Below are positions 2,954 to 60,449 of a stretch of 64,000 nucleotides of DNA, one piece after another. The stretch is taken from NCBI GenBank assembly GCA_020072965.1, contig JAIQFY010000004.1:62001-126000 (forward strand). Direction: 5' to 3'. This DNA comes from Terriglobia bacterium (GTDB lineage: Bacteria > Acidobacteriota > Terriglobia > JAIQFV01). The stretch's first letter is position 1; the number at the start of each line of letters is the position of its first letter. The notes under the pieces are model-generated. The model was not told the DNA's origin. It did no database searches and saw only the letters and a program-made list of their open reading frames with translations. A program made the position numbers and the translations under genes.

Positions 2954-4003
2954 ATGAGCACAACAAACAAAACAGTCAGATTAACAAGCCTGGTCAAGGC
3001 GGCGGGTTGAGCGGCTAAGATTGGTCCAAAGGATTTGGACCAGGTTCTCAGCCGACTTCCCCGGCAGCATGATAAGAATCTACTTGTTGGCTTTGAAACC
3101 AACGACGATGCAGGGGTGTATCTGATCTCACCAAACCAGGCCCTTGTTCAGACGGTGGATTTTTTTACTCCAATTGTAGATGATCCGTACCAGTTTGGCC
3201 AGATCTCCGCTGCCAATTCCTTGAGTGATGTCTACGCAATGGGAGGGACACCGATATCTGCTCTTACAATTGTAGGATTTCCAAGGACTGGATTGGATTT
3301 CGGAATTCTTGAGAGTATCCTCGCTGGAGGGATGAACAAGATGATGGAGGCCGGGTGCACCGTTGTGGGGGGCCACTCCATCGGGGATGAGGAGATTAAG
3401 TTCGGATATGCCGTAACGGGACTGATTGACCCCGAAAAAGTGATTCGAAATGTGGGAGCCCAAGGGGAGGATGTTCTTGTTTTGACCAAGCCCTTGGGAA
3501 CCGGCGTGATCGGCACTGCGGTGAAGCGCGAAGCGGTGGAGGATTCAGTCGTTCAGGCATCGGTCCGCTGGATGATCCAGTTGAACCGCCAAACCTCCAA
3601 GATTGCACAGGGCTACGAAGTTCATGCCATGACCGACATCACGGGATTCGGACTTCTGGGGCACGCGCGAATGATGGCCCAGGGGAGCGGCGTGACGCTT
3701 GAATTCGATCATACCCGGATCCCTGCCATGGGAGGGGCGCTGGATTGTATCGACAGGAAAATGATTCCCGGCGGGCTGGTGAACAACCGGAAGTATCTGG
3801 AGCCCATGGTGGAGTTTAAGGGGACCGTTCCCGAGCCGATGCGCACGCTCCTTTTCGATCCTCAGACTTCGGGAGGCCTGCTGATTTCATGTCGAGCAGA
3901 TCAAGCAGAGGCAATGATTCTTGAGATGCAGCGCCATGAAATACCCGCCAACGCGATTGGCACGGCGGTTGAAATGGGTCCGATGCCTCTTCGTGTGATC
4001 TGA
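2954..4003 (+). CDS. selD: selenide, water dikinase SelD containing selenocysteine (UGA at 3008-3010)
   Basis: SelD makes selenophosphate from selenide and ATP for selenocysteine and selenouridine synthesis. The frame runs from ATG 2954 through an in-frame TGA at 3008-3010 to the stop at 4003, giving 349 residues with Sec at position 19. Residues around the TGA read RLTSLVKAAG-U-AAKIGPKDL and align with the E. coli SelD N-terminus (RLTQY..GAGCGCKISPK). The TGA falls exactly on catalytic Cys17 and the essential Lys20 is kept as Lys22. Downstream are KNLLVGFETNDDAGVY, QTVDFFTPIVDDPY, NSLSDVYAMGG and the C-terminal TSGGLLIS. A hairpin 12-33 bases after the TGA fits a bacterial SECIS. The ribosome binding site is weak. 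Without Sec recoding the enzyme would lack its catalytic residue. Confidence 0.9.
3021..3043 (+). promoter_or_regulatory. bacterial SECIS-like hairpin in selD
   Basis: GGTCCAA (3023-3029) pairs with TTGGACC (3035-3041) as seven perfect base pairs. T3022-A3042 and T3021-G3043 can extend the stem. The apical loop AGGAT (3030-3034) has G in its second position and starts 19 nt after the UGA, inside the usual bacterial SECIS spacing of about 16-37 nt. Such hairpins are bound by SelB to deliver Sec-tRNA. Confidence 0.75.
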
Positions 4004-59759: not shown

Positions 59760-60449
59760 CGGGGCCTCACTCAGTAGGGCAAGTCCGATGGATGGCCTCG
59801 GTTCGAGCCTCATGGCGGCGCTGACCGCAGGACTGACGCTGGCGCCTCTGGCATAGAGCAGCGAGCGAAGACGGAGTGTGGCAAGACCGTGAAAGAGGTC
59901 GGAAGTCAGAAATCAGAGGTCAGAGGGAAGAAGCGGGAATTCATATTGTAGGGGCGCACCGCCGTGCGCCCTCTTGAGGATGTCTCAAGGCGGAGGTCGG
60001 AAGTCAGAAATCGACGCCAGAGGCTAGATGGCTTATCTCGCAGAATAATAGTTCTAGCGAGCCGCAAGGCGGCGAAATTAAGTAGCCTGGGGCGTCAGCC
60101 CCAGGAGAGGTCCCCTCTCGTTATTGAGCTCCCGAAGGGAGCGACATTGTTCTTCTCAAGCGAGAAGAGTCGCCATTAAACATCAGACGAAATAAGCCTT
60201 ATACCGCAGGCGTCACGATTAATCCGCCTTCCTTTATCCTAGTGAATTCATGCAGCTCCGTTCGTACTAGAGACATCCATGGCCTGAGGCCCCTGGCCAT
60301 CCTGCCCGGGCTGGACCTCCACTTCGTAGCGTTCTCTTCTCACGTTCCGCCAGTTTTTTTACTGGGCATGTCCAAACTGTGATATCCATTGTGTTTTGTT
60401 CTCTACGGGATCTGATGGAACCAGATCTCCATTTTGAATAGGAGCGAAA
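59760..60449. repeat. intergenic region packed with repeat elements
   Basis: Contains a 20-bp direct repeat GAGGTCGGAAGTCAGAAATC at 59895-59914 and 59993-60012, the hairpin GGGCGCAC CGCC GTGCGCCC (59952-59971; a relative occurs near 13786), CCTGGGGC GTCA GCCCCAGG (60086-60105) and GCTCCC GAA GGGAGC (60128-60142). The last two repeat the composite element at 28838-28899. No gene is seen; 60180-60440 shows no feature. Confidence 0.6.

Follow-up and report, generated by a model that had tools for sequence, protein, structure and literature searches.

A selenocysteine-type selD gene with a predicted SECIS hairpin in the genome of a Terriglobia bacterium

Results

The selD reading frame

The window, which is the whole analysed stretch of 64,000 nucleotides from a Terriglobia bacterium, carries a selD gene whose frame runs from ATG 2954 to TGA 4001-4003 and has a single internal stop, the TGA at codon 19 (Table 1). 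Translated through this codon, the product scored 382.9 bits in a profile search against the SelD equivalog TIGR00476, which is well above the cut-off of 125 bits. The match begins at residue 9, upstream of the TGA residue, and thus spans it, which agrees with the interrupted SelD frame reported in a preliminary description of this DNA made from the sequence alone. That description had also expected the usual annotation to begin the gene at TTG 3035, and the mechanical ORF call with translation table 11 does place the start there. We infer ATG 2954 to be the most likely true start codon; no strong Shine-Dalgarno sequence was seen before it.

Table 1. Features of the selD locus, a further RNA match in the window and the formate dehydrogenase gene found elsewhere in the same genome.
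Feature	Coordinates	Strand	Remarks
selD, selenide, water dikinase (selenophosphate synthetase)	2954..4003	+	349 aa; predicted Sec at residue 19
In-frame UGA, predicted to be read as selenocysteine; catalytic Cys/Sec position	3008..3010	+	alignment and 88 class relatives
Predicted bacterial SECIS core hairpin, GGUCCAAA-GGA-UUUGGACC	3023..3041	+	folding, relatives, published constraints
Acido-Lenti-1 RNA (RF01687)	60060-60105	-	52.1 bits; fits an acidobacterial origin
Formate dehydrogenase N/O-type alpha (FdhA), outside the window	C43:88794-91682		loci L050 and L055-L057; in-frame TGA

The active-site residue

When the product is aligned with SelD proteins of known structure, its TGA residue is matched by the C of 'AGCGCKI' in PDB 3u0o and by the C of 'SGCAAKV' in the Aquifex SelD (2yye), and the preliminary assignment of the TGA to the catalytic Cys position is therefore upheld. 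The N-terminal loop reads UAAKIGPKDL where these proteins have CGCKI and CAAKVGP, and the essential Lys, located three residues past the TGA, is common to all of them. The catalytic Cys or Sec followed by Lys is thus found in the window SelD as well.

Conservation of the codon in the class

The class sample comprised 121 genomes, of which 93 contained SelD above the cut-off, and 88 SelD loci were read. The codon at the Sec/Cys site is TGA in 74 of these loci, TGC in 10 and TGT in 4, with no other codon observed. Judged by SelD, the closest named genomes are MAGs of Acidobacteria group 2 and Acidiferrales, which makes an acidobacterial origin of the window very probable. The preliminary description had claimed that the sequence is kept on both sides of the TGA, including the essential Lys, and had regarded relatives without conservation across the UGA as evidence against its reading; the class relatives are conserved on both sides. 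As a separate observation, the N-terminus of one relative (L042, genome G029) shows near-repeats of A-A-K around Sec (SAAKAAGUAAK), possibly by coincidence.

These counts bear on the possibility that the TGA really terminates translation or is an error of sequencing, leaving a pseudogene or an N-terminally truncated SelD translated from the TTG. TGA is indeed a stop codon in table 11, and the mechanical ORF call begins at just this TTG. However, a protein truncated in this way would lose its active-site residue together with the essential Lys, the same TGA with conserved flanks recurs in the 74 independent class genomes, and the only codons that replace it are those for Cys. A true stop or an error is consequently very improbable, and the reading as Sec is preferred.

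A hairpin downstream of the UGA

The hairpin following the UGA has a core stem of 8 bp and a loop that can be drawn as GGA (3 nt) or, equally, as AGGAU (5 nt) at 3030-3034. Its stem base lies 12 nt past the UGA and its apical loop starts after 19-20 nt. The preliminary description had placed a stem with the loop AGGAT 19 nt downstream; the hairpin is there, but this distance is that of the loop start and not that of the stem. The 53-nt fold from the UGA has an energy of -24.9 kcal/mol, with a z-score of -4.8 compared to dinucleotide shuffles. Published constraints for bacterial SECIS elements are a loop of 3-9 nt, a stem of 4-16 bp, a G among the first two loop nucleotides, a distance of 16-37 nt from the UGA and a minimum free energy of -7.5 or lower, the usual loop pattern being N1-G-[G/U]-N-N2 in which N1 can pair with N2 (PMC13188914). 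The window hairpin lies within all of these limits, with an energy between -16 and -25 kcal/mol. A search of the selD region with the Rfam SECIS families gave no match, even at a relaxed threshold; Rfam covers bacterial SECIS elements poorly.

When codons were exchanged synonymously so that the peptide stayed the same, 111 of 20,000 recodings (about 0.6%) reached the observed 8/8 stem pairs, and 200 of 5,000 reached the hairpin energy. Since such recodings sometimes match its pairing and energy, the hairpin of this single gene is evidence of moderate strength, suggestive and not conclusive.

The comparison with the relatives makes a firm case for a SECIS element at this predicted position. TGA copies have on average 6.7 of the 8 stem pairs, compared to 3.8 expected from synonymous codons, whereas Cys copies have 4.4 compared to an expected 3.6. 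At least seven of the eight pairs are formed in 54/74 TGA copies but in only 2/14 Cys copies (Fisher p 6e-5, a value that ignores shared ancestry), and the hairpin is mostly eroded in the Cys copies. This contrast is also visible between near-identical peptides: L045, with the peptide SPSILDAVL and a TGC codon, is without the stem, while TGA copies encoding SPSILDSVL have it. In another locus with TGC (L038) the stem is still present and looks like a fossil SECIS. In a few TGA relatives (L082 and some members of family f8) the hairpin in the window register is weak.

Selenocysteine machinery and a second selenoprotein candidate

The genome (5.9 Mb, 100% complete) encodes SelA (556.5 bits), SelB (381.7 bits) and one tRNA-Sec (69.8 bits), for which ARAGORN gives the anticodon tca (UCA). 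Two further matches to the tRNA-Sec model above the threshold turned out to be ordinary tRNA-Ser genes. The preliminary description had expected all three components elsewhere in the genome and would have counted the lack of SelB and tRNA-Sec in a complete genome against its reading; each of them is present. It had also suggested looking for other UGA-interrupted genes, and FdhA is one. The TGA of this gene (C43:91236-91238) aligns exactly with Sec196, printed as X, of E. coli FdnG (1kqf) in the context '...DNQARL-U-HGPTVSSL...', and a hairpin is predicted past it. Judged by this alignment, FdhA is the predicted second selenoprotein of the genome.

The best match of the genome to the tRNA-2-selenouridine synthase profile TIGR03167 reached 25.3 bits, which is below the cut-off of 219.75, and the selenouridine trait is therefore not indicated. 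The genome also lacks the Rdx/SelW family, and its three CMD/AhpD-family matches have no internal stop.

Across the class, based on the lists of matches above the cut-offs, 90 of the 121 genomes have SelD together with SelB, and 24 have neither. SelD occurs without SelB in three genomes, each of which is 82-84% complete. Conversely, four genomes (G002, G030, G052 and G115) have SelB while SelD stays below the cut-off; these are probably assembly gaps, although G002 is rated 100% complete. SelB is kept in all 14 genomes with a Cys-form SelD.

UGA readthrough and genetic codes in which UGA encodes Trp occur in other organisms. The UGA of selD might likewise be translated as something other than Sec, such as Trp or a residue inserted by near-cognate decoding, and for metazoan SPS1 a non-Sec readthrough of UGA has been proposed (PMC4561486). 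Against this stand the presence of the Sec machinery and of the SECIS hairpin, a site that is exchanged only with Cys, and the TGA of the formate dehydrogenase at a known Sec position. Moreover, selD itself ends at a TGA, and the family length gives no sign of readthrough there. Insertion of a residue other than Sec is thus hardly to be expected. It is almost certain that the window gene encodes a SelD with Sec at the internal UGA, which would be decoded by the SelA, SelB and tRNA-Sec of the same genome. The codon and its position, the hairpin, the machinery, the conservation and the Sec/Cys exchange are read directly from the DNA; from them we infer the actual incorporation of Sec and the activity of the enzyme.

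Discussion

SelD with Sec was described long ago and ranks second in distribution among the selenoproteins of prokaryotes. For this reason, the window selD is an ordinary case of an arrangement that is well known in bacteria. SelD and FdhA have been described as the most widespread bacterial selenoproteins (PMC1794560), and in a reference set of 223 genomes 19% of the SelD genes encoded Sec, in every case at this one position and with a SECIS recovered (PMC4561486). Compared to these Sec-type proteins, including the Aquifex aeolicus SelD (2yye/2zod), nothing of substance differs: the family, the single UGA position, the in-frame SECIS directly downstream and the Sec machinery in the genome are shared, and one more species is added. 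Cys-type SelD proteins of the E. coli type (3u0o) have the same fold and enzyme function but carry a Cys codon at the aligned residue and do not need a SECIS. The Sec-containing formate dehydrogenase N of E. coli, in contrast, is a different enzyme with the same recoding mechanism.

In the proposed mechanism, SelB would bind the in-frame hairpin past the UGA and bring Sec-tRNA to the ribosome. The inserted Sec, located in a flexible N-terminal loop, would take the role of Cys17 of E. coli SelD. The enzyme is expected to make selenophosphate from selenide and ATP, which would feed the synthesis of Sec-tRNA, and SelD would therefore be built with the very amino acid whose synthesis it supports.

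Only the high share of Sec in the class, with 74/88 loci compared to the 19% of the reference set, and the number of Sec/Cys switches are mildly notable. A tree of 85 of the 88 SelD proteins requires eight Sec/Cys changes, six of which are forced by well-supported branches. Most Cys forms sit within groups of Sec forms, and genus g7 of family f6 contains both. Since the tree is midpoint-rooted, the direction of the changes can only be deduced. On balance, Sec appears to prevail in the SelD of the class and is probably its ancestral state, with at least six to eight switches between Sec and Cys, including some within one genus, while SelB was kept. The conversion of Sec to Cys in SelD, with SECIS-like remnants past the Cys codons, has already been reported (PMC1794560). 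A divergent pair in the tree (L082 of G097 and L061 of G020; stem branch 1.51), from families f6 and f4 and with one Sec and one Cys form, suggests horizontal transfer of selD.

If this history is true, the class would supply a set of natural cases in which to ask why an active-site Sec is lost, each switch being followed by erosion of the SECIS. For the Terriglobia bacterium, the use of selenium is indicated, and ordinary gene calling would truncate the selD of its genome. The known picture of a Sec-containing SelD together with formate dehydrogenase is thereby extended to one more acidobacterial genome, while the understanding of the recoding mechanism is unchanged.
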